Origin: Streptomyces sp. NBC_00237 | GTDB lineage: Bacteria; Actinomycetota; Actinomycetes; Streptomycetales; Streptomycetaceae | Reading direction: 5' to 3' | DNA length: 64,000 nucleotides | NCBI RefSeq assembly: GCF_026342435.1 | Contig: NZ_JAPEMT010000002.1 | Span: 1,922,001 to 1,986,000, forward strand | Shown here: piece by piece, positions 38,346-61,937 of the stretch | Layout: the number at the start of each line of letters is the position of its first letter | Numbering within the stretch: the first letter of the stretch is position 1 | Made by a program: the position numbers and the translations under genes | The notes under the pieces: model-generated | Database searches by the model: none | The model's input: the letters and a program-made list of their open reading frames with translations, nothing else | Told to the model about the DNA's origin: nothing

Positions 38346-38404
38346 GGTCAGGCAGGGGTTCGCTTGCGGGCGGGCGCCTTCTTGGCCGGGGCTTTTTTGG
38401 TGGT
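38346..38404. repeat. Left 59-bp direct repeat (stranded ku 3' end)
   Basis: Identical in all 59 positions to 61,879-61,937. On the minus strand it reads the last 18 codons of ku (TTKKAPAKKAPARKRTPA) plus stop; the upstream ku frame is absent here and the sequence departs at 38,405. Interpreted as one junction of the island. Confidence 0.9.
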
Positions 38405-38616
38405 GGCGACCTTGCTTGGGGTGCATGCTGCCCTAGCTCCCAAGACTATGGCACCGGAACCACATGGCGCGGGAATCAGCGTCTCCGTGCATTGCGGCTG
38501 TGAACTCGCTTGACAGCTCAACAAATTGCGGGGCGTCAGGGACGATGCCGACATGCAACAAGTGGCATGCTCTGTAGGCGATTTGAGATGGACGCAGAGG
38601 ATGAGGAGTAGCTGGT
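38405..38616 (+). promoter_or_regulatory. Island left-edge non-coding region with candidate promoter
   Basis: Lower G+C than the core. TTGACA (38510-38515) is a consensus -35; no good -10 follows at 17 nt. CATGC-N8-GCATG (38552-38569) is an inverted repeat close upstream of the gene at 38,617. Together with 38,316-38,404 the gene-free stretch is 301 bp. Confidence 0.35.
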
Positions 38617-39798
38617 ATGGACCTGTTGCAGTACCCGTGGAGCAGCGAATCAGATGCGCTGGGGCACTTCTTCGCCTACCAGCGCGCTGAGGCAGCACTG
38701 CTCACACGCCACCCCGAGCTGAGTGGCCGCATAGAAATGCACTCGCCCTTGAACTCATTGCCCGCCATGCTCACCGTGCGGGTCAGTGGCGGGGGCAGAG
38801 TTCTCTTGTGGCTGACACGTTTCGCGAAGCCGCATGGCTTCTATCCGTTCTGGCTGATCATCGGGCCCGCCGACAAGGGTCATCCGCGGATGTGGGACGC
38901 CTTGACCGACGCGGACGTGCTGGCCGACGCCGTAGGAGAACGTGTCAGGGCGTACGAAGAACAGCGTGCAGAGCTCAGCCCGTGGAAATGGGATGAGCCG
39001 GACAGCAAAGTGCCGATCGTCAGGTTGGCCGATGCGCTGGAAGCCCGAGGGCACGACGTCCGCCTCGTGGTATCCGCGAACCGGATACGTACCACGGAGA
39101 CCGTGAAGGGCATCGAGGCCTTTCCCTACCGGGCTCATGAGGGTGACTTCGTGGCGATCGGGATGGGCCGGAGTTCGGTTCGTATCTCCCGGAAGCCGAA
39201 GATCGGTTGGCTTGTGGATGTTCATGAGGAGGCACGGGGCATCCAGTGGCGTCCGGATGTCCACTCCCTTTTCCGCGGGGAAGCCGGAGTCGTCCCCGGT
39301 AGCGAACTCACCGACGAGATGCTCGATGAACTGCACGGTGTCATCGAGAGAGCTTTGCGGGAAGGCCCTCCGGAAGAGCGCCTGGTCGTGCCCCGTCACA
39401 AGGGGGAGATGCCTCGGGCGCGAAGTACGCAGGATCAGCGGCACACCTCACATCCGGCATCACGATCCACCGTCCGGGAACTTCGTACCCTTGGGTTCGG
39501 TGACGTGGTCGAAGTCGATGCCGGTGCGGAGTCTCCGGCGTCGCTGTCGTCCGAGTCACTGGCCATTGTCCGGTGGGAGCGCGACAAGGCTCTGGGGCTT
39601 GCGGACATCAAGATGATGTATGCCGATGCCACCGTTTCCGGAAAGCGGCTGTTGGTGCTGCTTCGGAGGAGCATGACGCGCCCCGCAAGCGACTTTGCGG
39701 ACCAGGCGAATGTCTTTGCGTACTGGGCCGACGAATCAACCGGGAGCATCACTCCGTACAGCAGAGCAGCCCAGGAGGCCGCTTTCGCCGAGGTGTAG
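38617..39798 (+). CDS. Uncharacterised island protein, possible nuclease-like C-terminal domain
   Basis: The product is 393 aa from ATG 38617, with GAGGAG 8 nt upstream. I do not recognise the N-terminal 270 residues: no signal peptide or membrane segment, mixed alpha/beta, with WLTRFAKPHGFYPFWLIIGP near 70 and a charged middle. After a Ser/Arg-rich linker the last 110 residues (VRELRTLGFGDVVEVDAG, then AIVRWERDKALGLADIKMM, GKRLLVLLRRSMTRPASDFA, then FAYWADE) follow the strand-helix order of Mrr-like endonuclease domains, but no D-xK triad is clear. It converges on the RelE/UvrD gene. Confidence 0.7.
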   Translation: MDLLQYPWSSESDALGHFFAYQRAEAALLTRHPELSGRIEMHSPLNSLPAMLTVRVSGGGRVLLWLTRFAKPHGFYPFWLIIGPADKGHPRMWDALTDADVLADAVGERVRAYEEQRAELSPWKWDEPDSKVPIVRLADALEARGHDVRLVVSANRIRTTETVKGIEAFPYRAHEGDFVAIGMGRSSVRISRKPKIGWLVDVHEEARGIQWRPDVHSLFRGEAGVVPGSELTDEMLDELHGVIERALREGPPEERLVVPRHKGEMPRARSTQDQRHTSHPASRSTVRELRTLGFGDVVEVDAGAESPASLSSESLAIVRWERDKALGLADIKMMYADATVSGKRLLVLLRRSMTRPASDFADQANVFAYWADESTGSITPYSRAAQEAAFAEV

Positions 39799-39856
39799 TT
39801 CCGAGTGGTGTGGGGCCGCCGGGGCACGTCGGCCCCACACCGTCCGGCTGGTGCCG

Positions 39857-41995
39857 TCAGACAGCCCCGGCATCCGTCAGGAACGGGCTCGGTGTGCCCC
39901 GCCAGGAGACGTAGAGGCCGTCGCGGGCCCGGGTGCAGGCGACGAAGAGCAGGCAGCGCTCGGCTGTCATGTCCGCTTCGTACTGGAGTCGGTCCACGTC
40001 GGCAGAAGTGATTGCTCCGGGGTACGGCACTGCGCCGTCGTGCGCTCCGATGACCGCTACGCAGCGGAATTCCAGGCCCTTGAAGGAGTGCATGGTGCCG
40101 ACGCGTACCGCGTCCACTTCGTCCGGGGCGTTCGCCCGGAGGCGCACCGCGGGGAGGCCGGCGGCACGCAGCCGATCGGCGGCCTGGTCGCAGGTTTTGT
40201 TGAAGCGGGCGCTCACTCCGATGTCGCCGGGCGGAATCCCCCCGCCCACCCAGCGTCGAACCCGCTCGACCAGTGCATCGAGTTCGCCTTCCTCGGAGGC
40301 CGCAGCATGTACCTCGGGGCCGTTGCCGTGTAGCGCCGAGCGATAACCGAGCAGGGTTTCGTTCCGGGCATCGTCTGCAAGCTGTTCGAAGGGACGGCCG
40401 ACGAGGAGAGCGGTGGACCAGCTGAGGATCTCGTGCGTGCTGCGGTAGTTCTTGCGCATCTTGGTGGAGCGGCCGGCGACGTTGATGTCGAGGGCCTTCA
40501 GGGAGACCTTGGAGTCGTAGATGCGCTGGTGCGGATCTCCCGCGATGAACAGGTCGTCCGGGCGGGCCGGGGCCGCGGCACGCAGCAGACGCCACTGCGC
40601 CGGGTGGAGGTCCTGGGCTTCGTCGACGACGATGTGCCGGTAGCGGGGGCCGTCGGCCCTCAGCTTGTCGGCTGCCTCCGCGCAGGTTCCGAGGTAGGTG
40701 CGCAGTCCGTCGGCGGCCAGTCTTCCGGTGAACTGTTCGACGGTGCGCCACACCAACGCGCGCTCAGCGACGGGGAGCGCGCTGCCGCGGCCCTTGCGTT
40801 CCGCCGCTTCGTATTCCTGGAGTGTGCGGAGGTTCTGAGCGAGCACCACGTGCTTGTACTCCTGCGCCAGGAACTGCGCCGTGCCGGTGAAGCCGGTGGC
40901 GCGGGCCGCTTGTTCCCAGCGGGTCTGCTCCTCTCCGCCGTGCAGCGGTTTGCGCGCGGTGGAGAGGGTCCGGCCGGCGAAGGCGTCGACCGTCATGACG
41001 TCGACCCTCGCGCGCAGGTCCGCGTCCTCGACGAGCGAAGCGAGGCCGCTGCGCAGTGCCGCCACGAGTGCGTTGGTGTACGTGGTCAGCAGGATGCGGT
41101 CCCCGTCGCGCAGGTGGCGCAGCAAGTGCCGTACGCGGTGCAGGGCGACTACCGTCTTTCCGGTGCCAGGACCGCCCGTGACCTGGGCAGGGCCGGAGTA
41201 GGAAGCGCGGTAGGCCATCTTGTGCTGGGAGGGGTGGAGGAAGATCCGCCAGGCCGCGAACGGCTTCTCCAGGATCTCCCGGAGCTCGTCGGAGGCGGTG
41301 ACGAAGGCGATACGGGTGGAAGTGGCGCGGATCGCGGCGTCGTAGTCCTTCGGGTCCACCGGCTCCGCGGTGTGCGCGGTGGGGGCGAGGCTGACCGAAA
41401 CCAGGTCGCGCCACACCTCCTCCACAGTGAAGCCCGAGGCCAGATACTCCAGGACTTCGCGCTGATCCTGCGGGAAGTGCGGCGCGAACACCTCCAGTTG
41501 TTCCTGGTTGGTCAGCACGCGGGCCTGGCGCAGGGTGGTCCCGTCGATGCCGAGGGCCGCCATGTCGCCGTCGGAGATCTTGGCGAACAGCCTTTGGTCG
41601 GGGGCGGGTGCGATGCGCTCGTACGCGGGCGTGAGTTGGTCGAGCACCTCGATGTCGCGGATCTCGACCGCCCGGGTGACCGTGTTGATGCTCGCCGTCT
41701 GTTTGACCGCCCAGGCGATGGCCTTGTCGTGGGGCATCACCCGCAGGAGTACGTAGGTCTGCCCGCTGGCCGGTGCGAGGACGACACCCCGAGTGCCCTG
41801 GGCGATGCGGATCGTACGAATGTGAGGGTCGCGGGCCTGCTTCAGGGACTCCAGTTTCAGCCCCGGGTCCTTGAAGAGCTGGTCCAGGGTGAGCCGTTCG
41901 AACTTTTCCCACGCGTCGAACACCCCTTGCCTGACAGGCCCCTGCAACTTGCTGAGCTGGGCGCAGAAGGCGATGTCGAAGGCGAGGTGGGGCAT
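39857..41995 (-). CDS. UvrD/Rep-type helicase with N-terminal RelE-like domain
   Basis: The product is 712 aa from ATG 41995 (GGAAGAAG 10 nt upstream). Residues 1-95 resemble a RelE/ParE toxin fold: RTIRIAQGTRGVVLAP, then YVLLRVMPHDKAIAWA. Residues 240-700 are an SF1A helicase: Walker A GGPGTGKTVVAL near 274, Walker B HIVVDEAQDLHP near 450, motif III GDPHQRIYDS, motif V VGTMHSFKGLEF and motif VI FVACTRARDGLYVSW. The helicase unwinds DNA or RNA with ATP; the RelE-like part could cut or bind RNA. It is last in a minus-strand run with AIPR and kinase genes, 77 bp after the AIPR stop. Confidence 0.88.
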   Translation of the reverse strand: MPHLAFDIAFCAQLSKLQGPVRQGVFDAWEKFERLTLDQLFKDPGLKLESLKQARDPHIRTIRIAQGTRGVVLAPASGQTYVLLRVMPHDKAIAWAVKQTASINTVTRAVEIRDIEVLDQLTPAYERIAPAPDQRLFAKISDGDMAALGIDGTTLRQARVLTNQEQLEVFAPHFPQDQREVLEYLASGFTVEEVWRDLVSVSLAPTAHTAEPVDPKDYDAAIRATSTRIAFVTASDELREILEKPFAAWRIFLHPSQHKMAYRASYSGPAQVTGGPGTGKTVVALHRVRHLLRHLRDGDRILLTTYTNALVAALRSGLASLVEDADLRARVDVMTVDAFAGRTLSTARKPLHGGEEQTRWEQAARATGFTGTAQFLAQEYKHVVLAQNLRTLQEYEAAERKGRGSALPVAERALVWRTVEQFTGRLAADGLRTYLGTCAEAADKLRADGPRYRHIVVDEAQDLHPAQWRLLRAAAPARPDDLFIAGDPHQRIYDSKVSLKALDINVAGRSTKMRKNYRSTHEILSWSTALLVGRPFEQLADDARNETLLGYRSALHGNGPEVHAAASEEGELDALVERVRRWVGGGIPPGDIGVSARFNKTCDQAADRLRAAGLPAVRLRANAPDEVDAVRVGTMHSFKGLEFRCVAVIGAHDGAVPYPGAITSADVDRLQYEADMTAERCLLFVACTRARDGLYVSWRGTPSPFLTDAGAV

Positions 41996-42072
41996 GGTCG
42001 TCGCTTCTTCCTGGGGTGCGGGGTGCCGTGGCCGGGTTGAGCGGGAGGAACGGAACGGGGCTGCCGGGCGCC

Positions 42073-44235
42073 TCAGTCGGCCGCCGCTTCGCCCTCGGGT
42101 GTCTCCTCCAGAGCATCGAGCGCCCGCCAGGCCAGGTCGGCGAGCGTCTCTCCGGCGGAGGTCTTCCACCGGGCGGTCCCCTGGTTGGCCACGGGCCGCT
42201 TCTTCCAGCCGGCCAGCTCCCACATGTGACTGACGAGACCGGACGGCGAGTACTGCTGGCCGTCGGCCGCCCACAGGACCGGCTTGGAGCGGTGATTGAC
42301 CCAGGTCCCCCGCGCTCGCCGTTCGTCCTCCGCCAGCCACTCCTGCAAGGCGTCCACTTCGATCGGGTAAGGGCAGTGGAGGAAGAGCGGCGTCCCGTTC
42401 TCCAGAAGCCCTTGATCGATGAGCACCGAGACCGCATTGGGCCTGCGGCGCTTGCGCTGGGTCCGGCTACGACGGTACGTGTCGGGCACGCTGCGGCCCT
42501 TGGGTGCCGTCAGGATGCCGATGGTGTCGTCGGTGACTTCGCGGCAGCGTACGGGGTCCGCGCACACGGCACGGATCTGCGACCGCGCCGTGTACCGCTC
42601 GTCGATCACGGCGGCCAGGACCGGCAGCAGCTGCTCGACGAGGACCGGTACTTGTTCCGTAGCGGTGGTGCACCACTCCAGCTCCGGGTCGGGTTCATCG
42701 ATGGCTTCCGTGTCCAGCAGACGGAAGACGAGATGGGTCAGCAGGTAGACGCCGTGCTCGGTCAGGGCCGCTCCGCGCCCCTCGTACCGCGAACGCAGCC
42801 GGTGAAGCGTCCGTCGCACGGCACGCAGTATCTGTACCGCGTTCCACAGGAGGTAGGCGCTCGGCTGGGGGCGGAAGAGGATGTCGTAGATGCCCTGCGA
42901 ACCCCGCTCCCACAGTACGTCGAGGGTGACGGCCATCCGGGCCGCGTACTGGCTGTCCACATGCGCGCAGGCCAGTGCGCAGGCCGCCTCCACCACGGAG
43001 CAGCCAATCTCCTCCTGCGGTTCGAGTTCGCTTCGCCTGACGCTGTACTCAAGGCCCAGTTCGGCCCGCATCTCCTCCATGATCGATGCCTGTACGGGGT
43101 CGAGCGCGATGAAGTCACGGGGCTCGACACGGTTCTGCCGGTTCGTCGCCTGAGTGACTTCCTTGGCGAACTCCTGCCTGCCTCCCGTCACGATGATGCG
43201 CACTCCGACTTGTGCCGACGCGGCATCCTCGTCGTGTTCCAACGCCTCTGCGACCGAGCGGACGGTCTGTGCCCCGTTCACCACGCTGGCGTTGCGCAGG
43301 GTGAGACCGAGAGGGAACCGTTCGGGGGCTCGCATGGACTGGTGCGTCTTCTCGACGGATTCGCACAGCACGGTGACGCCGTTGTTGAAGTACCAGAAGT
43401 TCGCGGGTTCCTCGACGAGGGTTCCGGTGAGCGCGTTGTTGATCGGCGTCCTGCCCAAGGGGTTGCGGATGTTGAGGTTGAACAGGTCCGCACCGTGCTC
43501 CATCCACTGCGCCACGCACTCCGCCGGGACAATCCCCTGGTAGGACTCGTAGGGCGAGCTCACGGAGAACCAGGGGTGGAGTTCCACGGTGAGATCGACG
43601 GACTTGGGAGCGAGGTCCTGGCGTACGGACGCCCACACCTCCGGACCCAGGATGAGACGGTGGTCGAGGACGTCCCCGTTGCGATTGAACTCGCGCTCCC
43701 CCACGTCCAGCGCCTGCCGGAACCCGTCGGTGACGTCGTCGGCGCGCATGAGGACGATGACTTGAGTGACAGGGACGGGCCCGCTCGACATCACCGTCTT
43801 GGCGTGCTCGGCCAGTTGCCGGCCGCGCGGGTTGAACTCGGCGAAGTCCTCGTCGTCGATGAGGCGCAGGCCGGTGAGCAACTCCTGGACGGCCGCCCGG
43901 TCGCAGGAGGCCCGGCCGTTCTTGCTCCACTTCGCCTGTACCAGGTAGACGTGCTTCTGCGGCCCGTCCACAACGGCAATGGCGTCGATGCCCTGATCAG
44001 CCATTCCGTCAATGACGGTGAACGCCGCTTCCTGGGGGCTGAATCCGGTGACGATTCGGACGGCCTGCGCGGTCAGCGCACGGGAGAGCAGGCGCGGGTC
44101 GCGTTCCTGCGGCGGCCGGCCCTCCAAGTCGCTGACGTCGAGCAGGTGCTCGTACGTGGTGCGCAAGGCCCTCTCCACCTGGCGCACCTGCAAGGTCACA
44201 TCCGCTTCGTGACTACCGGTACTCGTTGTACTCAC
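42073..44235 (-). CDS. AIPR-family (abortive infection) protein with PD-(D/E)XK-like core
   Basis: The product is 720 aa from GTG 44235 (GGAGGGGGAC upstream). The N-terminal domain carries MADQGIDAIAVVDG with Asp84 and YLVQAKWSK with Gln100-x-Lys102, the D...QxK arrangement of Mrr/AIPR nucleases. The central AIPR region includes FWYFNNGVTVLCES, RNASVVNGAQTVRS and VTQATNRQNRVEPRDF. The last 100 residues (GTWVNHRSKPVLWAADGQQY, then ARWKTSAGETLADLAW) look like a DUF4357/RAMA-type module, uncertain. AIPR proteins are linked to abortive infection and R-M loci. It lies between the kinase and the RelE/UvrD gene. Confidence 0.88.
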   Translation of the reverse strand: MSTTSTGSHEADVTLQVRQVERALRTTYEHLLDVSDLEGRPPQERDPRLLSRALTAQAVRIVTGFSPQEAAFTVIDGMADQGIDAIAVVDGPQKHVYLVQAKWSKNGRASCDRAAVQELLTGLRLIDDEDFAEFNPRGRQLAEHAKTVMSSGPVPVTQVIVLMRADDVTDGFRQALDVGEREFNRNGDVLDHRLILGPEVWASVRQDLAPKSVDLTVELHPWFSVSSPYESYQGIVPAECVAQWMEHGADLFNLNIRNPLGRTPINNALTGTLVEEPANFWYFNNGVTVLCESVEKTHQSMRAPERFPLGLTLRNASVVNGAQTVRSVAEALEHDEDAASAQVGVRIIVTGGRQEFAKEVTQATNRQNRVEPRDFIALDPVQASIMEEMRAELGLEYSVRRSELEPQEEIGCSVVEAACALACAHVDSQYAARMAVTLDVLWERGSQGIYDILFRPQPSAYLLWNAVQILRAVRRTLHRLRSRYEGRGAALTEHGVYLLTHLVFRLLDTEAIDEPDPELEWCTTATEQVPVLVEQLLPVLAAVIDERYTARSQIRAVCADPVRCREVTDDTIGILTAPKGRSVPDTYRRSRTQRKRRRPNAVSVLIDQGLLENGTPLFLHCPYPIEVDALQEWLAEDERRARGTWVNHRSKPVLWAADGQQYSPSGLVSHMWELAGWKKRPVANQGTARWKTSAGETLADLAWRALDALEETPEGEAAAD

Positions 44236-44345
44236 TGCCCGTCCCCCTCCGTGCGGGGCTGCGGCATCCACGACACGTGCGCTCGCCCCTGGATCATTGA
44301 TGTTTGCACACAGTCACAGCCTGCCGAGTGCTTCTGGTCGAGTGG

Positions 44346-45944
44346 TCAGCCGCTCGTGGGGCCGTCGAGGTCGAGGCGTACGACAGCGAGGGTTTCCGCG
44401 ATCTCGACCGTCAGTTCGTCGTCCGACCCAAAGACCAGGAGGAGGTCGGCGTGCAGCGGCTCCAACAGCTCCAGCGCTTCGGCTGCGCGCCCCTGCGCGA
44501 GCAGGAGCATGGCGATGTCGCGACGCAGCACGACGGCGTCCTCACTGACGTCCCCTTCGACGACCCGTACGGCTGCGAGCACATCCCGCAGCGCGTGCAG
44601 CGCGTCGGTGGCCTGGCCGAGTTCGGCACGACAACGGGCGGCCTGCGCCCGGCAGTTGAGGGCCGACTTACTGGAGGGCCCACCCGTCCTTGCATAAGCA
44701 TCGGCGAGAGTCTCGAACTCGGGCAGCGCCGCCCGGAAGTCCCCGCCGAGCAACAAGCTCACTGCGCGGCGCATACGCAACCCCAGGACCACCTTGTTGT
44801 CACTGCCCAGGGGGCGAGCAGCGAGCTCGACCATTTCGCCGACCACCTCGGCGGCTTGGGAGAAGCGCTCCTCCTCCATCAACGCGTCGTAGTGCGCACG
44901 CACTTCCCTGATCTGCGCCCGCAATGCCTCCGGCAGCGGCGCGGGCGCTGCGGGCTGTTCCGGGACCGCGGCGGGCTGCGGCGCGGGCGCCTCGGCGCGA
45001 GGGCGGGGTGCGTACGGGCGGCGGAAGATGCCGGTGGGGTCGGGGACGTGGCGCGGCGCCTGTTCATGGGGCAGGGCCTGGTCACCGGGCACGGGCAGGA
45101 AGGGCTGGAGTCGCTCGTACACCTCCTGAATGTCCGCGGGCCGCTCCTCGGGGGCCTTGCGCAGCAGGTGCAGGACGAGGGCCTCCAAGGGCACCGGTAC
45201 GTCTTGGCGCAGTCGACGAAGAGGGGTCGGGGCCTCGTTGACGTGCTGGAACATCAGAAGGTATTCGCTCTCGGCAGCGAAGACCAAGTGTCCGCTGAGG
45301 AGTTCGTGCAGAACGCAGCCCAGTGCGTAGAGGTCGGCCTGCGGGGTGATCCGGCCGCCGCGCACCTGTTCCGGCGACATGTACTGGTAGGTGCCGATGG
45401 GACTGCCGGTCGCGGTGAGTTTGGTGATGTCGGTGCGCAGCATGGCGGCGATGCCGAAGTCGAGGACCTTCACCGTGCCGTCGCGGGCGACGAGGATGTT
45501 GCTCGGCTTCAGGTCGCGGTGGATCACCGGGACGTCGTGCGCCCAGGACAGCACGGTGGTCACCTGGGCGGCGACGGCGGCGGCCCAGCCGATGGGCAGT
45601 GGCTGGGCCTGCTGCCGGGGGTCGGCGGGGATGTAGGCGGTGAGCGGCACCCCGTCCACGAGCTCCATCACCAGATACAGGTGCTCGTACGTGTCGTCGA
45701 GTACGGCGTCGAACACCTGGGGTACACCGGGGTGCTGGATGCGGGCGGTGATGCGGGCCTCGCGCTTGAATCGCTTGGCGAACTCCTCGGCGAGCTCGGG
45801 CGAGGTGACCGACTGCTGCCGGACCAGTTTGACGGCGACGGGCCGATCGAGGACGGCGTCGTACCCTCGCCACACGTCGCCCATGCCGCCGTGGCTGAGT
45901 GGTTCCAGGAGTTCGTAGCGTCCCGCGATCGGCTTGTTCGGCAC
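44346..45944 (-). CDS. Cytosolic Ser/Thr protein kinase with C-terminal helical (TPR-like) region
   Basis: The product is 532 aa. The kinase domain (residues 8-275) is complete: Gly loop LSHGGMGDVW, Lys in VAVKLV, catalytic HRDLKPSNIL, DFG as DFGIAAML, and SPEQVRGG. A Pro/Ala-rich linker (290-340) follows, then an all-helical region with TPR-like spacing (RFSQAAEVVGEMVELA, DFRAALPEFETLADAYARTG, QATDALHALRDVLAAV). No transmembrane segment or PASTA domain, so it acts in the cytosol. In a defence setting the TPR part could recognise a phage product and the kinase pass the signal on. A 110-bp gap separates it from the AIPR gene. Confidence 0.9.
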   Translation of the reverse strand: MPNKPIAGRYELLEPLSHGGMGDVWRGYDAVLDRPVAVKLVRQQSVTSPELAEEFAKRFKREARITARIQHPGVPQVFDAVLDDTYEHLYLVMELVDGVPLTAYIPADPRQQAQPLPIGWAAAVAAQVTTVLSWAHDVPVIHRDLKPSNILVARDGTVKVLDFGIAAMLRTDITKLTATGSPIGTYQYMSPEQVRGGRITPQADLYALGCVLHELLSGHLVFAAESEYLLMFQHVNEAPTPLRRLRQDVPVPLEALVLHLLRKAPEERPADIQEVYERLQPFLPVPGDQALPHEQAPRHVPDPTGIFRRPYAPRPRAEAPAPQPAAVPEQPAAPAPLPEALRAQIREVRAHYDALMEEERFSQAAEVVGEMVELAARPLGSDNKVVLGLRMRRAVSLLLGGDFRAALPEFETLADAYARTGGPSSKSALNCRAQAARCRAELGQATDALHALRDVLAAVRVVEGDVSEDAVVLRRDIAMLLLAQGRAAEALELLEPLHADLLLVFGSDDELTVEIAETLAVVRLDLDGPTSG

Positions 45945-46076: not shown

Positions 46077-46658
46077 CTAGGAGGCAGAAGGATGGCGAGT
46101 TGGCTGGTTTGGGGTGGCGATGGAGGTGGGAACGGGGGTCGAGATGTGGGCGGCAGGGATGTGTGCGGTGACGGTGAGTTGTGCCCAGACCGTCTTGCCG
46201 GGTCCGCCGTCCGTACGGGGGTCGCAGCCCCAGCGGTCGGCGAGTGCCGCGACGAGGAGTAGGCCGCGGCCGTCGGGGCGGTCGGCCGTGGTTTCGGAGT
46301 CGATGTCGCGGCTGGCCGGTGCTGGGAGGCGGTCGCCGCGGGTGTCGGTGACCGCGATTCGGATGGTGGTGGAGGTGGTGGGCTCACCGTTCCCCTCTGT
46401 CGCCGTCAGGTCCACTCGGAAGTCCCGGCCGGAGACGTGGCCGTGCAGGACGGCGTTGGCACACAGCTCGGCCGTGATGAGGGTGAGGGAGTCGTGGGTG
46501 TCGGATCCGTATGCGATCCCCCAGGTCGCGAGGCGCTCCCCACAGAGGCGGCGGGCGAGGCGGGCGCCGCGCCTGGTTGAGCTGAAGCGCATTTGGAAGT
46601 GGTGGGTGGGAGTGGCGAGTTGGGTGGTTGTGGTGTTGTTCGCGGGATTGCTGGTCAT
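46077..46658 (-). CDS. HATPase-domain anti-sigma-like regulatory protein
   Basis: The product is 193 aa from ATG 46658 (the frame extends to 46799 but overlaps the divergent gene's start). A GHKL ATP-binding domain like RsbW/SpoIIAB: N-box ITAELCANAVLHG, G1 box AVTDTRGDRL, G2 PDGRGLLLVAALADRWG. The last 35 residues are Thr/Pro/Ser-rich. In Streptomyces such small ATPases commonly sit next to XRE/DUF397 pairs, as here (divergent), and are thought to act as their partners. It is upstream of the kinase on the same strand, 132 bp away. Confidence 0.85.
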   Translation of the reverse strand: MTSNPANNTTTTQLATPTHHFQMRFSSTRRGARLARRLCGERLATWGIAYGSDTHDSLTLITAELCANAVLHGHVSGRDFRVDLTATEGNGEPTTSTTIRIAVTDTRGDRLPAPASRDIDSETTADRPDGRGLLLVAALADRWGCDPRTDGGPGKTVWAQLTVTAHIPAAHISTPVPTSIATPNQPTRHPSAS

Positions 46659-52438: not shown

Positions 52439-54447
52439 TGAGTAACCTTCCCAAACAGCGCCTGAATCTCAGCTTCCAGAGCCTTCAGCTCCGCGTCGAT
52501 TTCCGCCAACGGCCGCGGGGGCTCATACACATAGAAATGCCGCGTGAACGGAATCTCGTAACCCACCTTCGTCTTGCTGTGGTCGATCCACGCATCCGAC
52601 ACATGCGGGTGGACCTCCCGTTTCAGGTAGTCCTCGACCTCCTCCCCCAACGGCACGTTCTCGTAGTCCCGCAGCTCCGGGTCAGGCTCGGGCTCGCCCT
52701 TGATGCGCTGGACCTCGCCCTTCGGGTCACGTACGCCCACTACGTCCCGTACCGCCTTCGCGAAAGGTCCGCCCGACGGCCACAGCAGGCCGGCCGCTAC
52801 CACCGCGTCCTTGAGCGCCACGAGCGCCTCGGACTTCGTCTCCCACGTCGAGCCGAGTAGCGTGCGTACGGCCGCCATGAAGTCCTCGCTCTGCTCCAGC
52901 TTCTGCACCGGCTTTGCAACAGCCAGCGCCGATGCCGTCGCCTCCGTCACCTCGAAGCGGAGCTTCAGCGGGCGTTCCACCGTGATGCGCTGGTAGCCGA
53001 AGTCCTCATTCTGGAAGACCTTGATCTTCGCGTGCATCGGGTGGTTCTCGTCGCGGGCGGCTTCCATCGCCTCGCCGTACAGGCGTGTCACATCCGCGAT
53101 GTGGTTGGGCTTGCCGTTCTTGCCGTCGCCCATTTCCTTGCGCTTGTCGCCGAGCGACTTTCGCATCTTCACCCACTGGTCCCGCGCGTCCAGCAGGACC
53201 ACCTTGCCCTTGTGGTCCGGTGCCTTCCGGTTCGTGAGGATCCAGAAGTACGTGGAGATTCCCGTGTTGTAGAAGAGCTGGTCGGGGAGGGCGACGATTG
53301 CTTCCAGCCAGTCGTTCTCCAGAATCCATCGGCGGATTTCGGACTCGCCGGACCCCGCCGCGCCCGTGAAGAGGGGCGAACCGTTGAAGACGATCGCGAT
53401 GCGCGAGCCGCCTCCGCCGTTCACGTCCACCGGCTTCATCATCGAAATCATGTGCTGGAGGAACAGGAGCGAACCGTCGTTGATACGCGGCAGGCCCGCA
53501 CCGAAGCGGCCCGCGTCACCGAGGCTCTTGTGCTCGTATTCGACCTCTTCCTTGACCTTCTTCCACTCCACCCCAAACGGCGGGTTAGCCAGGAGGTAGT
53601 CAAACTTCTTGCGAGTGAAGGCTGGATCGGAGAAGGAGTTACCGAAGGCAATATTGTCCGGGTCCTGCCCCTTGATCATGAGGTCGGAGCGGCAGACAGC
53701 CCACGACTCGGGGTTGAGTTCCTGCCCGAACACCTCTACCACAGCGTCCGAGTTGAACTCCGTGATGTAGTCATCTGTCGCCGATAGCATTCCTCCCGTG
53801 CCACATGCCGGGTCCATGACCGTGCGGACCGTGCCGGGGACTGTCAGAGCATCGCCGTCAGGAGCGATCAGGAGGTTCACCATGAGCTTGATGACCTCGC
53901 GCGGGGTGAAGTGTTCGCCAGCCGTTTCGTTCGACTGCTCCGACCAACGGCGAATCAGTTCCTCGAAGATGTAACCCATGTTGTGGTTGGGAACGTTGCT
54001 CGGATGCAGGTCCAGTGCGGTGAATACCTCGATCACCTTGTAGAGCTGTCCGGCACCATCGATTCGCTTTACATGCCGACCGAATTCGTAGGTCTCCAGA
54101 ACCTCTCTGGCGTTCTCCGAGAACCCACTCATGTAGGCCAGAAGGTTCTGTGCGGCGTGCTGCGGGTCTGCTGCAATCTTCTTCAAAGTCAGACGGGTCT
54201 TGTTGTAGAAGTCATGACCCGAAGCCTTGCGAAGAAATGGCTCTGCATTGAAGTCGTCGTTGTCCTTGTACTTCTCAGCGAGGGCCGCTGTCTCCTCCCG
54301 GGTGGGTTCGAGTACGCACTCCAGTCGTCGCAGCAGAGTGAACGGGAGAATGACCCGGCCATACTCCGACTGCTTGTAGTCACCGCGCAGGAGTTCGGCG
54401 ACGGACCACGCGGTGTTCACCAGCTCTGTGTGCTTGCTGTTATTCAA
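52435..54447 (-). CDS. hsdM: Type I R-M DNA adenine methylase (HsdM) subunit
   Basis: The product is 670 aa from TTG 54447 (GGGGAAG upstream; the family starts with N-N-x-K-H-T-E-L); ATG 54486 is the longer alternative. The N-terminal helical domain (WSVAELLRGDYKQSEYGRVI) is followed by motif I MDPACGTGGML near 210 and motif IV LLANPPFGVEW near 288. A long C-terminal region (500-670) with charged helices exceeds the 480-540 aa of EcoKI-type HsdM. It methylates adenine in the HsdS target. Confidence 0.95.
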   Translation of the reverse strand: MNNSKHTELVNTAWSVAELLRGDYKQSEYGRVILPFTLLRRLECVLEPTREETAALAEKYKDNDDFNAEPFLRKASGHDFYNKTRLTLKKIAADPQHAAQNLLAYMSGFSENAREVLETYEFGRHVKRIDGAGQLYKVIEVFTALDLHPSNVPNHNMGYIFEELIRRWSEQSNETAGEHFTPREVIKLMVNLLIAPDGDALTVPGTVRTVMDPACGTGGMLSATDDYITEFNSDAVVEVFGQELNPESWAVCRSDLMIKGQDPDNIAFGNSFSDPAFTRKKFDYLLANPPFGVEWKKVKEEVEYEHKSLGDAGRFGAGLPRINDGSLLFLQHMISMMKPVDVNGGGGSRIAIVFNGSPLFTGAAGSGESEIRRWILENDWLEAIVALPDQLFYNTGISTYFWILTNRKAPDHKGKVVLLDARDQWVKMRKSLGDKRKEMGDGKNGKPNHIADVTRLYGEAMEAARDENHPMHAKIKVFQNEDFGYQRITVERPLKLRFEVTEATASALAVAKPVQKLEQSEDFMAAVRTLLGSTWETKSEALVALKDAVVAAGLLWPSGGPFAKAVRDVVGVRDPKGEVQRIKGEPEPDPELRDYENVPLGEEVEDYLKREVHPHVSDAWIDHSKTKVGYEIPFTRHFYVYEPPRPLAEIDAELKALEAEIQALFGKVTQ

Positions 54448-54536
54448 GGTCTTCCCCGGTTTCTTTCCAGGCCGTACCGCCCTCATCGGGCGTATGCGGT
54501 CCAGTGTGGTGGGCGGTAGTGGTGCGAGTGGTGTGT

Positions 54537-56849
54537 TCAGGAGGAGTGGGCAGCCGAGGCCGGTGCGACGGGTGGTGGCAGCAGGGCCCCAGCTGTCAGG
54601 CCGGTGGTCAAGGTGGACGCCAAACCCGTTGCCAACTCGCCTGCTTCGCGCGCCGCTTGGCGTAGTTCGTGTACGCGGCGGAAGGCGTCCCCGTACCGCC
54701 TCTGCTGTTCCAGCGGCATCAGGGGGACCCGCAGGCGCCCCGGGTTGACGTGGACGAGTGAGCTCGTGCCTGTGGAGGCGGCGGCGATGTTGTCCTCCGC
54801 TCCCAGGAAGCCCGCCAGGAACCACGCGTCCAGGCGAGCCGGGTCCGGGCGGAGGAGGTGGAGCATCGGGCCGAGCAAGGCCCCGGCGTCGCGGTCGTCG
54901 GCGACCCGGGACATCGCGCTGTGCCCGGCTTCCGGCACCCCCCCGGTCTGGCCTCCCTGCGGAGCCGTACCGCACAGCACCACGTCGCCCGCCGTGACGA
55001 CGGTCTGCGGCGCCGAACCCGGTCGGACGCCCTCGGCCGTACCCGAAGGCGGGTTCCCGGCGGCGACGTCCAGGAGGCGCAGTACCAGGCGGTCGTCCAC
55101 CGCACCGTCCGTCTCCTCTGTCGGCGCCTTGCCGCTCGCGGTGTCCCGAGGCGCAGTCAGTGCCCCGCGCAGCAGGGCGAGCGCGCCGCCCCGGGCCAGG
55201 TCCGAGACCGTCGCCGTACGCCACGCGTCTGGCGAAGAAGAAGCATCGGACGGCTGCCAGTCCCCCGACGAGCCGGTGACGGCGGCCAGCTCCCCCATCC
55301 GGGCGGTGAGCTGTGAGCGCAGGTCCGCCACCCGCCCCGCCAGCACCTCGGGGGCGATGTCCGACGCCGTGGACCGGACGTGGCGTGCGGGAGAGAGGTC
55401 GACGGTCTCGCCGATCAGGTCGACCATGGGAACGGCCCGGGACACTCCCGGCTCATCGCCGAACGCATCGGGATCGGACGAGAACGCCGTCCACTGGTCA
55501 AGAACGCGTTTCGTCAAGCCCGGCCAGTTGAGTGGGGGTTGAGGACCACGGCTGGCCCCGCGCGTGCTGCGCACCGATGTACCAGTCGTGGCCGCGTCGC
55601 GCGCACCCCCCTGCCCGCCGCTCTCCGCGTTGACGAACAGCACCGACTTCCGCTCCGCACCCCCCGGTTCCGGGCGTTGCAGCACCCAAATGTGCAGGCC
55701 GATGTGGAGTGGGTGCGCCGCCCCCTGCGGCAACGAGACCACCGCGCGCAGGGCTCCGCTACGTACGAGATCGGCGCGAATGCGGCGGCCCGAGGTGCGG
55801 AAGGCCGCTCCGGGCGGGAGCAGCATGATCACGAGGCCGCCCGGGCGGGTGTGGGAGAGGGCGTGCTGCACCCAGGCCAGTTCGGATTCCATGCGCGGCG
55901 GGACTCCGTAGGCCCATCGCGGGTCGTACGCGAGCTCGTCGTGGCCCCAGTCGCGGTCACCGAAGGGTGGGTTGCAAAGGACCGCGTCCACAGTGAGACC
56001 GGGGAACGCGTCATCGCGCAGGCTGTCGCCGAGGCGGATCTGCACCGCGGATTCGGATTCGGCACCCACAGCACCCGGCGAAGACGGCGAGGACAGCGGG
56101 CTCGGCAAGTCGGCTTCCAGCAGCAGTCGTACGGCCGAACGCTGGCCCTGCACCGCCAGCGTGTCCTGCCCGTACAGACTGCTCGCACCACACCCAGCGG
56201 CAGCAGCAAGCAGCGCACCGCTTCCGCAAGCCGGGTCGAGGACAGTGGTGACGCCCTCGGGGAGGAGCCGCGCCATCAGCGTGGCCAGGCCCTCAGGGGT
56301 GAGGTAGGCGCCGGTGGCCCCGCTCTCCTCCAGCTCTCGTTCGGCGAGGACGCCGAGGGTCGCCTGAGGTCCGGCCTCCTGTACGCAGTGCAGCAGAGCG
56401 CGGACTGCCGGGGCTTCCCCTGCGCCGTAGCGAATCTGCTCGACGAGGGGCACCGCGTCCGGGAGGCGACCAGCCGCGACGTCGGCCCGGGAGACCAGCT
56501 GCTCGTCGGAAGTGTCGACGGGCGAGGCGAGCTGCGCCATCTCTTCCGGGGTGAGGCGGGAGGCAGCCAGCACCAAGGGGATCAGGCGTGCGGCGACTCC
56601 GGCACCGACGCCGTAGAGGCGCAGCGCGGTCCGCAACGCTTCCTCGGGCGAAGCCTCGGAGGTGTGCCCGCGCTCGTTCAGCCAGTTCTGCACGGCCTGG
56701 AGGTCGTACAGCGGGCTGCTGTCCGTACCGCCCGCGGGGACGGGGAAGTCGTCGTGGCGGCGGCGCCAATTGCTGACGGTGGCGCGGGTGACTCCTGCGA
56801 TGCGGGAGATCTCCGCCGCCGTGACCTGGGCGGGTGGCTGATGGGGCAT
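54537..56849 (-). CDS. HTH-N6-adenine methylase-TRD fusion protein
   Basis: The 770-aa protein begins with an HTH (residues 10-40, ITAAEISRIAGV-like: AAEISRIAGVTRATVSNWRR). A helical region follows, then a type I-like methylase core with motif I LDPACGSGALL near 203 and VLCNPPFGDRDW near 291. The C-terminal 330 residues resemble a single HsdS half (VSDLARGGALALLRGALT, then GRLRVPLMPLEQQRRYGDAFR). No nuclease or translocase domain is seen. It heads the minus-strand operon, 89 bp before hsdM, so it is a second methylase or an autoregulator. AT position 56,880 an operator-like palindrome overlaps its promoter. Confidence 0.85.
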   Translation of the reverse strand: MPHQPPAQVTAAEISRIAGVTRATVSNWRRRHDDFPVPAGGTDSSPLYDLQAVQNWLNERGHTSEASPEEALRTALRLYGVGAGVAARLIPLVLAASRLTPEEMAQLASPVDTSDEQLVSRADVAAGRLPDAVPLVEQIRYGAGEAPAVRALLHCVQEAGPQATLGVLAERELEESGATGAYLTPEGLATLMARLLPEGVTTVLDPACGSGALLAAAAGCGASSLYGQDTLAVQGQRSAVRLLLEADLPSPLSSPSSPGAVGAESESAVQIRLGDSLRDDAFPGLTVDAVLCNPPFGDRDWGHDELAYDPRWAYGVPPRMESELAWVQHALSHTRPGGLVIMLLPPGAAFRTSGRRIRADLVRSGALRAVVSLPQGAAHPLHIGLHIWVLQRPEPGGAERKSVLFVNAESGGQGGARDAATTGTSVRSTRGASRGPQPPLNWPGLTKRVLDQWTAFSSDPDAFGDEPGVSRAVPMVDLIGETVDLSPARHVRSTASDIAPEVLAGRVADLRSQLTARMGELAAVTGSSGDWQPSDASSSPDAWRTATVSDLARGGALALLRGALTAPRDTASGKAPTEETDGAVDDRLVLRLLDVAAGNPPSGTAEGVRPGSAPQTVVTAGDVVLCGTAPQGGQTGGVPEAGHSAMSRVADDRDAGALLGPMLHLLRPDPARLDAWFLAGFLGAEDNIAAASTGTSSLVHVNPGRLRVPLMPLEQQRRYGDAFRRVHELRQAAREAGELATGLASTLTTGLTAGALLPPPVAPASAAHSS

Positions 56850-57017: not shown

Positions 57018-58250
57018 ATGCGCCTCACCATGCCCACCACCGTCATCGAGGGCACCCAGATCACCGTCATGCCGTTCCGCGAAGACGCCGTCATCGGGAC
57101 GGTCTCGCTGGCCGCACTCCTCCAGATCGTTCCTTCGCCGCGTCGCGAGGAGGACCAGAAGTCACTGAAGACCGCCTCCGGCCAGCTCCGCCAGCATGCG
57201 GAGATCCGTGCCCAGGTCCAGCGCACCCTGAAGACGACGGGCAAGGGCAAGAACGCCACCTCGTACGCCGAGTACATCGCCGCGGGGCTCAACGGTGTGT
57301 GGGGCGACGCCTGGTCGCTGCCGCCGATCACCTTCTGGCACGCGGACGCGATCGCTGCGATCAGCGACGAGCTGCTGCCCGGCACCGGGCTGCGTACCCT
57401 CACCATCGCGCCCGGGGCGACCGTCGTCGCCGTCGACGGCGAGACGCAGCTGACGGCCTGGCACGACCTGTTCGACGCACCGGAGAAGTTCGGGGTGACC
57501 TACCAGCAGCTGACGGCCGTCCGGATTCCGTTCGAGATGTACGTCGGGCTCAGCCCGGCCGATGCGCGGCAGATCTTCCACGACCGCAACGTCCTGGGCA
57601 TCGACGTGTCCAAGAACCTCTCCATGTCCATGGACCAGCGCGACCTGGCCACGCGTCTGACCCACCGGGTCGCCGAATCCGTCAAGATCGAGCTCGACGG
57701 CAAGATCGTGCCCTTCAGCAAGCTCGTCAACGCGACCAAGCGGCAGGTCAGCGCGTCGGACATTGAGGTCGTCACGCTCTCGGCGCTGCGTGCCCTGGTC
57801 GTCGCCACTCTCTTCGGCCGCTCCGGGCTGAACCTGTCGTCCGAGACCATCCACGAGGATGACCTGCCCGCCGGTACGAGTGCCGAGCTCGTCGAGCGCA
57901 CCATCGTCCCGCTGCTGGCCGGGCTGATCACCGAGCACCTGGCCGCGTTCACCTCGCGCGGTGCCATCACCGCCCCCGCCGTGATCGCCGGTATCGGTGT
58001 CGCCGCACATCATGCGATGCCCTGGGCGGATGCCTTCCAGAACGTGGGTGCCGACGACCTGCGCCGTCTGCTCGCCGAGATCCGCTGGGAGCGCGAGGCC
58101 GCGTACTGGGACGGCATCGCTGCCAAGACCGGCACCACGGGCCGCCTCAACTTCAGCGGCGGCGTCAAGGACTCCGGTGGACGGGTCGCCGACGCCATCC
58201 TCTACCCGGCGACGGAGGCGGGGCGCCGTATCCGGGGGCTTCAGGGATAG
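57018..58250 (+). CDS. DndB-like (DGQHR-family) protein
   Basis: The product is 410 aa from ATG 57018 (GGGAG 5 nt upstream). The DndB/DGQHR-type core is seen as VVAVDGETQLTAWHDL (residues 135-150) and FHDRNVLGIDVSKNLSMSMD (about 192-211), the second being well conserved in the family. The DGQHR signature is degenerate here (DGETQ). DndB represses phosphorothioation genes and recruits the Dnd proteins, but no dndA/C/D/E is in the window. Divergent from the HTH-methylase gene, it may act with the R-M operon. Confidence 0.7.
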   Translation: MRLTMPTTVIEGTQITVMPFREDAVIGTVSLAALLQIVPSPRREEDQKSLKTASGQLRQHAEIRAQVQRTLKTTGKGKNATSYAEYIAAGLNGVWGDAWSLPPITFWHADAIAAISDELLPGTGLRTLTIAPGATVVAVDGETQLTAWHDLFDAPEKFGVTYQQLTAVRIPFEMYVGLSPADARQIFHDRNVLGIDVSKNLSMSMDQRDLATRLTHRVAESVKIELDGKIVPFSKLVNATKRQVSASDIEVVTLSALRALVVATLFGRSGLNLSSETIHEDDLPAGTSAELVERTIVPLLAGLITEHLAAFTSRGAITAPAVIAGIGVAAHHAMPWADAFQNVGADDLRRLLAEIRWEREAAYWDGIAAKTGTTGRLNFSGGVKDSGGRVADAILYPATEAGRRIRGLQG

Positions 58251-58313: not shown

Positions 58314-61300
58314 TCAGCGCCGCCCCTTCCGCCGGAACTGGACATCCATGATCCAGGCCCGATCTCCCCGTCTGGCCGGACACGTCCGGTTGAAGCACCT
58401 CCAGTACCAGAGCCCGTTCTTGCGTCTACGCAGGTCCACCTCGTCCTTATGGCACCCACCGCACTTCGGCGGGCTCGCAAAAATCTCCGCATGTTCGTGA
58501 GTGAGGATCTTGCGTGCGAAGTGGCTTCCCCTGATGGTCAGCATGACTTCGCGCGAGCGGCTCTGCGAGAGGGAGTTGAGACTGCCGAGCAGGACAGTCT
58601 GTTCGTCGATGACGACGATCTTCTGGTGCATGACGTTGACGGGGACGACGGTCGGCACCACCGACCGCAGCTGTCTGACCAGGTCGGCCTGCTTCTCCTG
58701 GCCCTTGTCGGACGGATCCCGGACGAAGATCGTCACGCGGACTCCGCGGTTCACCGCGTCCGCGAGTACCGGGAGCAATCCGATCAGTCTCTTCGCGGTC
58801 CAGGGGGACCAGATCCACAGAGACGTACGGGCTTCGGCGAGGCGGTCGGCGAACGTCTCGTAGAAGGAGATCTCGTCGTCGACGTCGGACACCTCGACGT
58901 GGCGCGAGAGCACATCGGCAAGGCGGCCACCGAACATGCCGAGCGAGGTGTCGTGCTGTGTGCCGGGTGAGATGAGTCCGGTGGCGGGTACCGAGCGGGC
59001 TCGCCTGTCCTGGCTGAGTGCGGCCAGTTTCCCCATGGCCGTCTGCTCGCCCGCGGCGAGGATGCGGCTACGGCTGCCGATCACGTACAGCCTGGTCTGT
59101 ACGCGGGTGACGGCGACGTTGAAGAGGCGTACGCCGTTGCGAGCCCACGGGGTCGCGTCGGGGGCTCGGGAAGCCTGCGACATCCACAGGCCGTCGCCGT
59201 AGTCGTCCTCCACCAAGTCGAAGATCACCACGGGGAACTCCCGCCCCTGGAAGCGGTGCACCGTCCCCACCTCGGCCAGTCGGCTGCCGGCCGCTTCGCT
59301 GTCCCGGAGGGCTTCCAGGGTGGCTTCCGCCTGCACCGGGTACGGCGTGACGACACCGGCCTCCTCACCGTCCTCCGCGTGCAGATCGACCAGCGCCCGC
59401 GCGAGCAGTGCACCGGCGGGCCACCAGCCCTTGCGGCGGCCGGTGCGGCGGACCTGAGCGAGGCTCTGCAACCCGTCCGTATCGATGATGACGATCTCTG
59501 GGTCGTTCACGTCGTGTGCGCGCCGCGCGACTCCGGGACCGGGCTTCAGCACGCCGTCGTACGCGAGGGAGTTCGCGAGGCCCATGACGGCATGGCCGAA
59601 TCGGTGCTGGACGTCCAGCACGATGCAGCCTTCGTGGTTCACGGCAGCCGCGGGCGACTCGACGCCGAAGTGTTCGTAGACCTCGCGCAGGATCCATCGG
59701 GCAACGTCAGGCCGCTTCCTGCCGTCCAGGTCCGGAAGGATGGGGCCGAGCTGCATGAAGTCGCCCAGCAACACGGCGGTCGTCTTCGCCCTGCCCACGG
59801 CCAGCAGGACCTCGGGCAGGGTCGCGGCTCCGGCCTCGTCGACCAGTACGACGTCGTACTCGCCCTCGAACACCGACTTGGTGGTGCGGAAGCGGGCGAG
59901 GGTGGTCGCCACGGCCTTCGCTCTGCGGATGATCTCGCCCTGGGCGTCGCGGGCAAGTTTGTCGTACTCCTCCTGAAGCTCGCGGTGGCGGCGTTCGAGC
60001 GCGGGACGGTCCTTCTCGTCGGCGGTGACCTTGGGTTTCAAAGAGGCTGCAGCGGCGTGCCGTTCGGGGTGTCCGAGGCGATCGGTCTCCGCGACACGGG
60101 ATGCAGCCTCCTTCGAGAGGCCGAGTTCGCGGGCGAGCGAAGCAAGAAGGGCGTCGGCGGCCCGATGAGCACGCTTCGCCCGGTCCAGGTCGCGCTGCAC
60201 TTCGCGGGAGGTCGTCTGCCGGTACTCGATTTCCTCTTTGGTGAAGGGCACCAGCCTGCGGAACTCCTCAAGCGGGCCGATCAGGGCTTCCTCGTTGCGG
60301 GTGAGGATGGATCGAGCGGCCTCTGCCTTCTCCTCGGCCTTCTCGGCCTGGTTGCGGACCGTTTCCAGGTTGGCGGCGGCCCGTCCCCTTTCTTGCTTGG
60401 CGCGACGCTTCGCAAGACCTCTCAGCTTCTCCAGGCCCTCCAGGAGTTCCTGCGCGTCCCCCAGAGCGCTGTCGGCAAGCAGAGCCTTCGCCTCCAGTTC
60501 AGTGACCACGGAACGCAGCTGGGCAAGCTCCCCCATCTTCTCGTCGTGCTGCTTCCAGGCGTCCTGGGCCTGCTCCGTGGCGCGTACGGCTTCGACCGCC
60601 ACTTCGCACGCCACGCCCAGGTCCGCAGCTGCTTTCTCCGCCGTCTGCGCCTCCCGGCGCGCCTGGGTCCGGGCACGCACCAGGGCATCGGGGGCACGGG
60701 TGGGATCGTCGAGCCGGATGCGGTCGGACGTATACGCCACAGGGTCGAAGCCTGTGAGACTGCGTTCCAGATCGTCCAGCAGCCGGGCCCGCTCGCGGGC
60801 CTCCAACAGTTGACCGGCGACGCTGCGACGCCGTTCGTCGGCGTTGGCCAACTGTTGACGAACCCTCAGCGTGAGGCAGACATTCGGGTCCTCCGCGACC
60901 TCCCGCAGGTGGGGCGGTCCCACGCGGACGACCTCTCCGTCCTGGTGCCGACGCTCCTTGATCACGCCCAACAGGGCGTTGTCCACAGCAATGTTGGTAG
61001 CCGAAACCAGCAGGACGCGCTTGCCCGACGCAATGAGATCACCGATGGCCCGTTTGAGGACTGTGGTCTTGCCTGTCCCGGGCGGTCCCCACACCAACCA
61101 CAGACCCTCACCCATGCACGCGCGGTAGGCGAGACTCTGCGCCGGCAGCAGCACGCTCGGCGGCGGTCCGACCTCGGCGAGGCGCCCGGTACCCGCCTCG
61201 CCCCGGGCCATCAGATGGGCAAGAGGGGCGTCGGTCAGTGCCGCCAGACCTTCGCGCAGGGCCTTCACCAGGAATCCCATGGGCTGCGGCTTCATCCACA

Positions 61301-61604
61301 GATGCGGATCGGCCGGATCCGCGAACTCCGGGACGCGCACCCGCAGTGCCGTGCCGTCCTTGAACACATCAAGCACCGAATGCCCGGCGTCGACGCCGCT
61401 CTCGTCGGGCCCGGCCAGCCTCAGGCTGTCACCCTGGAGCTGGTCCGTCCCGATGTCAGAGCCACGTATGTCGACCACGAACTCCCCGGGTTTCGCAGCC
61501 CGTACCGCTCGCCCGAGAGGGCGCCACCTGGGTTCGCGGGCCGGGACGCCCTCGTGCGCTACCCATGCGTCCAGCGCCGAAACCACTTCTTCCTGCCAGC
61601 CCAC
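58314..61604 (-). CDS. UPF1-like helicase-coiled coil-PLD-zinc finger protein (Mokosh type II-like)
   Basis: The product is 1096 aa from GTG 61604 (GGGGGAAC just upstream). Walker A WGPPGTGKTTVL near 172, then a coiled-coil insert (about 240-560, Glu/Ala/Arg/Leu-rich), motif II VVLVDEAGAATLPE near 586, motif III LLGDFMQLGPIL and motif V/VI VGTVHRFQGREF and FNVAVTRVQTRLYVIG. A PLD module follows with one HKD motif, HQKIVVID near 990, and a C-terminal Cys4 zinc finger (CGGCHKDEV ... CFNRTCPA, about 1045-1075). Helicase of this class plus PLD in one chain is the described layout of Mokosh type II (MkoC) defence. It is the last gene before ku. Confidence 0.8.
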   Translation of the reverse strand: MGWQEEVVSALDAWVAHEGVPAREPRWRPLGRAVRAAKPGEFVVDIRGSDIGTDQLQGDSLRLAGPDESGVDAGHSVLDVFKDGTALRVRVPEFADPADPHLWMKPQPMGFLVKALREGLAALTDAPLAHLMARGEAGTGRLAEVGPPPSVLLPAQSLAYRACMGEGLWLVWGPPGTGKTTVLKRAIGDLIASGKRVLLVSATNIAVDNALLGVIKERRHQDGEVVRVGPPHLREVAEDPNVCLTLRVRQQLANADERRRSVAGQLLEARERARLLDDLERSLTGFDPVAYTSDRIRLDDPTRAPDALVRARTQARREAQTAEKAAADLGVACEVAVEAVRATEQAQDAWKQHDEKMGELAQLRSVVTELEAKALLADSALGDAQELLEGLEKLRGLAKRRAKQERGRAAANLETVRNQAEKAEEKAEAARSILTRNEEALIGPLEEFRRLVPFTKEEIEYRQTTSREVQRDLDRAKRAHRAADALLASLARELGLSKEAASRVAETDRLGHPERHAAAASLKPKVTADEKDRPALERRHRELQEEYDKLARDAQGEIIRRAKAVATTLARFRTTKSVFEGEYDVVLVDEAGAATLPEVLLAVGRAKTTAVLLGDFMQLGPILPDLDGRKRPDVARWILREVYEHFGVESPAAAVNHEGCIVLDVQHRFGHAVMGLANSLAYDGVLKPGPGVARRAHDVNDPEIVIIDTDGLQSLAQVRRTGRRKGWWPAGALLARALVDLHAEDGEEAGVVTPYPVQAEATLEALRDSEAAGSRLAEVGTVHRFQGREFPVVIFDLVEDDYGDGLWMSQASRAPDATPWARNGVRLFNVAVTRVQTRLYVIGSRSRILAAGEQTAMGKLAALSQDRRARSVPATGLISPGTQHDTSLGMFGGRLADVLSRHVEVSDVDDEISFYETFADRLAEARTSLWIWSPWTAKRLIGLLPVLADAVNRGVRVTIFVRDPSDKGQEKQADLVRQLRSVVPTVVPVNVMHQKIVVIDEQTVLLGSLNSLSQSRSREVMLTIRGSHFARKILTHEHAEIFASPPKCGGCHKDEVDLRRRKNGLWYWRCFNRTCPARRGDRAWIMDVQFRRKGRR

Positions 61605-61880
61605 GTTCCCCCGTTACGACAGCGCTGCCCGGATCTTGTTCCTGTTATTAGCAACGAAACGGATCGATGACCAGCAGTTATCCCGCCATTGCGCACGAGA
61701 CCCACCAGCGCTGGAGCCTCGATGTCATCGTGGTGCCGCTGGTCGGGATCCCGGCCAACACCGGCCTCTGAGCGGCGCGCGGGCTCGCGTGTGCCCGCTT
61801 CACGCTGCCGTACCACTGAACACGTCGCCGATGGTGAGGTTTCGCCGGTGACGCCGTTCTTGTAGGTCGGGGTGTTTTGG
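61605..61880. other. Right-edge non-coding region of the island
   Basis: Between the Mokosh-like gene start and the ku stop. A small frame at 61,667-61,771 (34 codons, plus strand, starts MTSSYPAIAHETHQRW) has no ribosome site and no recognisable family; it may be a gene relic. No recombinase fragment is seen. Confidence 0.5.
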
Positions 61881-61937
61881 TCAGGCAGGGGTTCGCTTGC
61901 GGGCGGGCGCCTTCTTGGCCGGGGCTTTTTTGGTGGT
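61879..61937. repeat. Right 59-bp direct repeat (3' end of intact ku)
   Basis: Identical to 38,346-38,404. It covers the last 18 codons and the TGA of ku plus 2 bp beyond, and continues into the ku gene at 61,938. Confidence 0.9.

Follow-up and report, generated by a model that had tools for sequence, protein, structure and literature searches.

The bacA islands of Streptomyces are gene-end insertions, situated at the 3′ end of bacA and accompanied by a 141-bp duplication of that gene (PMC4057263). Among them, PAISt has a tyrosine recombinase gene of its own, intSt, of which its sedentary relatives retain only a remnant (PMC4057263). Decayed AICEs of the same genus carry cargo between direct repeats and are devoid of a complete integrase, and accretion at tRNA-Arg has been described (PMC9513070). 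There are also documented hot spots that are free of integrases, exchange their content at the flanking core genes and tend to have a repair gene at the border (PMC5635113).

The locus described here lies in a window of 64 kb, the whole stretch of Streptomyces sp. NBC_00237 DNA that was analysed, and it resembles each of these systems in part. As with PAISt and its sedentary relatives (PMC4057263), a Streptomyces island occupies the 3′ end of a protein-coding gene and is flanked by a duplication of that end; the target, however, is ku instead of bacA, the cargo consists of defence genes, and no integrase remnant is present. As with decayed AICEs and cis-mobilisable cargo (PMC9513070), repeats flank cargo without a complete integrase and relatives have empty sites, whereas traB, rep and a partial integrase were not recognised here and the repeat derives from ku as opposed to a tRNA gene. 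The likeness to integrase-poor hot spots (PMC5635113) is that of a variable interval between conserved genes, with no integrase detected and a repair gene at the border. The ku island differs from these by its exact direct repeat of a gene end, a feature not accounted for by recombination at the flanks. An integrase-less island in a hot spot is of a kind already known. No report of ku as an insertion target was found in the mostly open-access literature that was searched, in which “Ku” is not usable as a lone term, and ku would join the short list of protein genes with an island at the 3′ end.

The 59-bp Repeat and the ku Gene

The first-pass annotation proposed that identical 59-bp copies of the ku 3′ end bracket the island and that only the right copy belongs to a ku gene. 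Both statements hold. The copies are in direct orientation, 23,533 bp apart (Table 1), and match at 59/59 positions, with the identity breaking off abruptly at both edges (38346/38404 and 61879/61937). This is the sole exact direct repeat of at least 24 bp within the window and, with up to three mismatches allowed, there are exactly two copies across the 9.2-Mb genome. The right copy contains the last 18 codons of ku, the stop codon and 2 nt downstream. The left copy, when the ku reading frame is followed inward, remains ku-like for at most six codons, and ku is single-copy in the genome. A search for an inverted-repeat core within the 59 bp found none, and an att core is not recognisable; inverted or direct repeats common to the two ends of the island were likewise searched for and are not detectable. 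Similarity of the repeat to the 3′ end of tRNA-Arg, which might lead a tRNA integrase to mis-target ku, was considered and rejected, as 42% of random 59-mers score equally high.

Table 1. Features of the island and its borders (window coordinates).
Feature	Position	Strand	Evidence
tRNA-Arg(CCG), 3′ end forming the other hot-spot border	37279..37351	+	ARAGORN; Rfam RF00005
Membrane-protein gene beside the insertion, adjoins ku in S. spiroverticillatus	37632..38315	+	90% aa match in L063
Left 59-bp repeat, detached ku 3′-end copy, putative attL	38346..38404	+	exact copy of 61879-61937
393-aa protein of unknown function, encoded at the island edge outside conserved locus	38617..39798	+	no Pfam, PADLOC, PHROG or NCBIfam match
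UvrD-like helicase	39857..42340 (ORF as listed; start probably near 42.0 kb)	-	PF00580 1.7e-23
AIPR / AbiU-like abortive-infection protein	42073..44271	-	PF10592 2.6e-32; AbiU 8.6e-30
Serine/threonine protein kinase with TPR	44346..45944	-	PF00069 1.7e-42
HATPase (anti-sigma-factor type) protein	46077..46799	-	PF13581 1.2e-10
XRE regulator with DUF5753	46711..47658	+	PF19054 4.6e-50, PF13560
DUF397 protein	47655..47936	+	PF04149 2.2e-27
HsdR, type I restriction subunit	47997..51179	-	PF04313, PF18766
HsdS, specificity subunit	51182..52438	-	PF01420
HsdM, N6-adenine methylase	52435..54510	-	PF02384 2.6e-55, PF12161
Second N6-methylase, N-terminal HTH	54537..56849	-	PF02384 1.2e-33; PDLC03037 2.4e-289
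DndB-like (DGQHR) protein	57018..58250	+	PF14072 7.7e-12
SF1 helicase-PLD nuclease fusion, encoded at the island edge outside conserved locus	58314..61604	-	PF13086, PF13087, PF13091
Right 59-bp repeat, intact ku 3′ end, putative attR	61879..61937	+	exact copy of 38346-38404
ku, non-homologous end joining protein	61881..62876	-	TIGR02772 3.1e-84

An Empty Site in a Close Relative

The GTDB collection was searched with the membrane protein, which yielded one close relative, Streptomyces spiroverticillatus JCM 4609 (L063). In this species the membrane-protein gene is followed directly by ku, by way of one repeat copy that is identical at 54/59 positions. The window and this relative share 84% nucleotide identity across ku-ligD. 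When the outer flanks of the window are joined over one repeat copy, they give a single alignment block of 2,660 bp at 83.6% identity. The empty site that had been predicted from the window, with one repeat and ku beside the membrane-protein gene, is therefore present and collinear in S. spiroverticillatus. None of the island genes was found in its tRNA-ku interval. Insertion at the 3′ end of ku, leaving the gene intact, is well supported.

The two copies in the window differ at 0/59 positions and the two species at 5/59. On this basis the insertion is probably younger than the split from S. spiroverticillatus, unless gene conversion has kept the copies alike. The identical copies would also argue for a young insertion over an old relic. 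The tails of ku are hypervariable between species; as the copies nonetheless match at 59/59 positions, the incoming one would have come from the same or a very near species.

The tRNA-Arg(CCG)-ku Interval

The tRNA-Arg(CCG) gene sits only 1 kb from the left repeat, and the stretch between it and ku covers window positions 37351-61881. In a sample of 100 other Streptomyces genomes, covering approximately 15 kb downstream of ku in each (L069-L108, L151-L210), this tRNA faces ku in 32, at distances of 79-13,615 bp from the ku stop codon. A block of response-regulator, argS-like, lysA and hom genes accompanies the facing tRNA in these genomes, as it does upstream of the tRNA in the window; in 28/32, lysA is situated no more than 6 kb past the tRNA. 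There is no tRNA-Arg within reach in 62/100 genomes, in which the interval may extend further or a rearrangement may have affected the locus. Across many Streptomyces, the gap from the 3′ end of ku to that of tRNA-Arg(CCG) ranges from 79 bp to more than 40 kb. Since its content and length vary between fixed flanks in many genomes, the interval is, as judged from these comparisons, a turnover hot spot, with the window insertion on its ku side. The earlier suggestion of ku as an unusual target is better replaced by that of an insertion on the ku side of this hot spot, the site not being an isolated ku target.

The S. spiroverticillatus tRNA-ku interval is approximately 42 kb and has only the membrane-protein gene in common with the window. 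Around 41 kb of it extends from tRNA-Arg to the membrane-protein gene (L063 225-10240; L258-L260), and neither direct repeats nor an integrase were detected in this DNA. Reading of the ORFs in its ku-proximal part indicated biosynthetic genes of the isochorismate/anthranilate-synthase type. The interval is a concrete hot spot, with defence genes here and in a second genome (G282, described below), and a biosynthetic cluster in S. spiroverticillatus. In two of the sampled regions, L194 and L183, copies of the tRNA-Arg(CCG) 3′ end (42 and 25 bp, respectively) flank inserted DNA between the tRNA and ku; an integrase was not detected in the L194 insert, which carries transposase-like ORFs.

In the same 100 ku-flanking regions of approximately 15 kb, a phmmer search with three of the genome's own integrases detected no tyrosine recombinase, nor did any region show a second ku tail at a distance. 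With hypervariable tails and 0/100 other ku ends found to be accompanied by either, there is no support for ku serving generally as an attachment site. In region L176, an exact copy of the 40 bp that end ku lies 306 bp further downstream; it is the sole exact local copy among the 100 regions. This genome (G068) was examined as a candidate second ku-tail duplication and rejected, as the copy lies within a local array of tandem repeats that stems from the end of ku.

Gene Content of the Island

The island is a 23.5-kb block of genes with predicted defence (anti-phage) functions (Table 1), in which the genes for HsdR, HsdS and HsdM of a type I restriction-modification system are found together. 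The first-pass annotation had found no recombinase encoded inside. This was borne out by the absence of a recombinase, transposase or recognisable remnant from both the main proteins and 400 stop-to-stop frames of at least 25 aa. Among the island proteins there was nothing recognisable as an integrase, a transposase, a relaxase or a phage structural protein, nor any product of the AICE set of traB, rep and integrase genes.

A locus that pairs type I-like methylases with a protein kinase is reminiscent of MADS (methylation-associated defence) systems, and there is weak similarity to the MAD2 and MAD6 models. The island differs from MADS in its DndB-like, HsdR and XRE/DUF397 genes and in their arrangement. 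Membership of MADS is not supported, as the scores lie far under the curated cut-offs, with the two methylases reaching 33 and 58 bits against 720 and the kinase 132 against 460.

The 393-aa edge protein has relatives that are only 28-33% identical, in 11/393 other Streptomyces genomes. At the limits used, no plasmid relatives were found for this protein, and neither plasmid nor phage relatives for the SF1-PLD protein.

A Defence Locus Conserved in Other Streptomyces

The DndB-like protein has relatives in 30/295 other Streptomyces genomes, approximately 10%. Seventeen neighbourhoods were picked by the DndB-like gene (L222-L249, L261-L273), some of them cut by contig ends. The genes for HsdR, HsdS, HsdM, the second methylase and the DndB-like protein occur in the same order in all 17, joined by the kinase in 16, the XRE regulator in 15, the UvrD-like helicase and the HATPase in 13 each, and the AIPR protein in 7. 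HsdS is the variable member, and the two edge genes, encoding the 393-aa and SF1-PLD proteins, are in 0/17. The gene order of window positions 39857-58250, UvrD-(AIPR)-kinase-HATPase-XRE-DUF397-HsdR-HsdS-HsdM-HTH/N6-methylase-DndB-like, recurs in 17/17, though not every gene is present in each. The locus occupies differing chromosomal positions across genomes. The cargo of the island thereby points to a conserved multi-gene defence locus in approximately 10% of the Streptomyces genomes searched. This locus is possibly one large unreported defence system; no report of it was found in the literature that could be searched.

Among the genomes examined, only G282 has the bulk of these genes, with their order kept, in the tRNA-Arg-ku interval. 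The first-pass annotation named the same gene content without the repeat in a relative as evidence against a ku-targeted insertion. G282 supplies this in part, having most of the genes in the same order and interval and no ku-tail repeat at the locus. Its divergent ku-ligD pair (L244, L223, L245), inverted relative to the usual arrangement, adjoins the same defence locus. The window DndB and HsdR proteins are nearer to their homologues in G314 than to the G282 proteins, and the 60 kb examined in G314 contain neither ku nor tRNA-Arg. This relationship speaks against simple vertical descent of the locus at this site.

Origin of the Insertion

A tyrosine recombinase acting on the end of a gene restores the gene and leaves a direct repeat, and an insertion with a 59-bp repeat extending two bases past the ku stop codon fits this outcome. 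By comparison, insertion by serine integrases or DDE transposases produces far shorter repeats. Precedents in Streptomyces are the bacA islands (PMC4057263) and the decayed AICEs with repeat-flanked cargo (PMC9513070). In the manner of site-specific islands, the direct repeat here is the end of the target gene, the target is restored and a relative has a one-copy empty site; in the manner of CIME-like elements, putative att sites flank cargo without a recombinase. On balance, the island probably goes back to a tyrosine recombinase that inserted it recently at the 3′ end of ku and that either acted in trans or was later lost. The ancestral order would have been tRNA-Arg, membrane-protein gene, ku. 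A circular form of the block would have carried the 59-bp ku end as attP, and a tyrosine recombinase would have joined this circle to the chromosomal ku end, resulting in attL at 38346 and attR inside ku. As none is found in the block, the recombinase would have been supplied by a helper element or lost without trace.

Several observations weaken this model. The seemingly young insertion holds no recombinase or remnant, hypervariable ku tails are a poor conserved target, and no second ku-linked insertion was found in 100 genomes within 15 kb. The repeat is without an inverted-repeat core, and in G282 most of the cargo sits in this interval with no ku repeats around it. In addition, the surroundings of the genome's own five tyrosine-recombinase-domain hits yielded no att-like site. 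As regards a helper element, this genome has no third copy of the repeat within three mismatches, and a search of phages, plasmids and viral contigs for an attP-like match gave only lysine-tail-like or short matches, or none. A trans-acting helper would reconcile the points against the model. It is doubtful, though conceivable, that the island represents a mobile defence element lacking its own recombinase, for which the end of ku, a double-strand-break repair gene, serves as attachment site, with an integrase acting in trans that recognises the lysine-rich ku tail of this lineage.

Other origins call for no dedicated recombinase. Foreign DNA with the defence locus could have replaced the content of the hot spot by homologous exchange at its conserved flanks, or a circular molecule with a short stretch of ku end could have entered by a single crossover, the repeat being the homology used. 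The interval is a hot spot with an integrase detected in 0/100 ku-flanking regions, G282 has most of the locus there without ku repeats, and integrase-free hot spots with core-gene exchange have precedent (PMC5635113). Double crossovers in the flanks alone, however, would not duplicate 59 bp exactly to the ku end; the fourfold-site divergence of the flanks gives no clear recombination signal. Such turnover is rather unlikely. Capture of foreign DNA at a staggered double-strand break is a further proposal, in which a break in the ku tail left a long overhang that was filled in as the DNA was joined. It would account for a duplicated target around an insert that needs no enzyme, and for island ends without detectable common repeats, inverted or direct. 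The gene-restoring position is not predicted by it, though, and a stagger of 59 nt is long for such a break, making this origin very unlikely.

It is comparably improbable that the island is old at this site and was lost from S. spiroverticillatus by recombination between the copies. Such an excision would give an identical single-copy junction, and the presence of the same locus in the tRNA-Arg-ku interval of G282 is in keeping with it. Against it, no difference separates the two copies, compared with 5/59 positions between the species, and the window DndB and HsdR are nearer to G314, without ku or tRNA-Arg within the 60 kb examined, than to G282. Chance similarity of lysine-rich gene tails is scarcely credible as the source of the repeat. 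Lysine- and alanine-rich tails do yield partial matches of 30-38 bp in many genomes, but the 59/59 identity spans the stop codon and 2 nt beyond, with only two copies in the genome, and the empty site with one copy at the same junction rules this explanation out. Under the preferred reading, of insertion by a tyrosine recombinase, the block would be lost when its two repeats recombine, leaving one restored ku end, and the identical 59-bp ends make excision directly testable.

A minor similarity was noted at the right end of the island, where 47 bp (window 61751-61797) match, at 85% identity, a piece of intergenic DNA from a plasmid of Streptomyces anthocyanicus.
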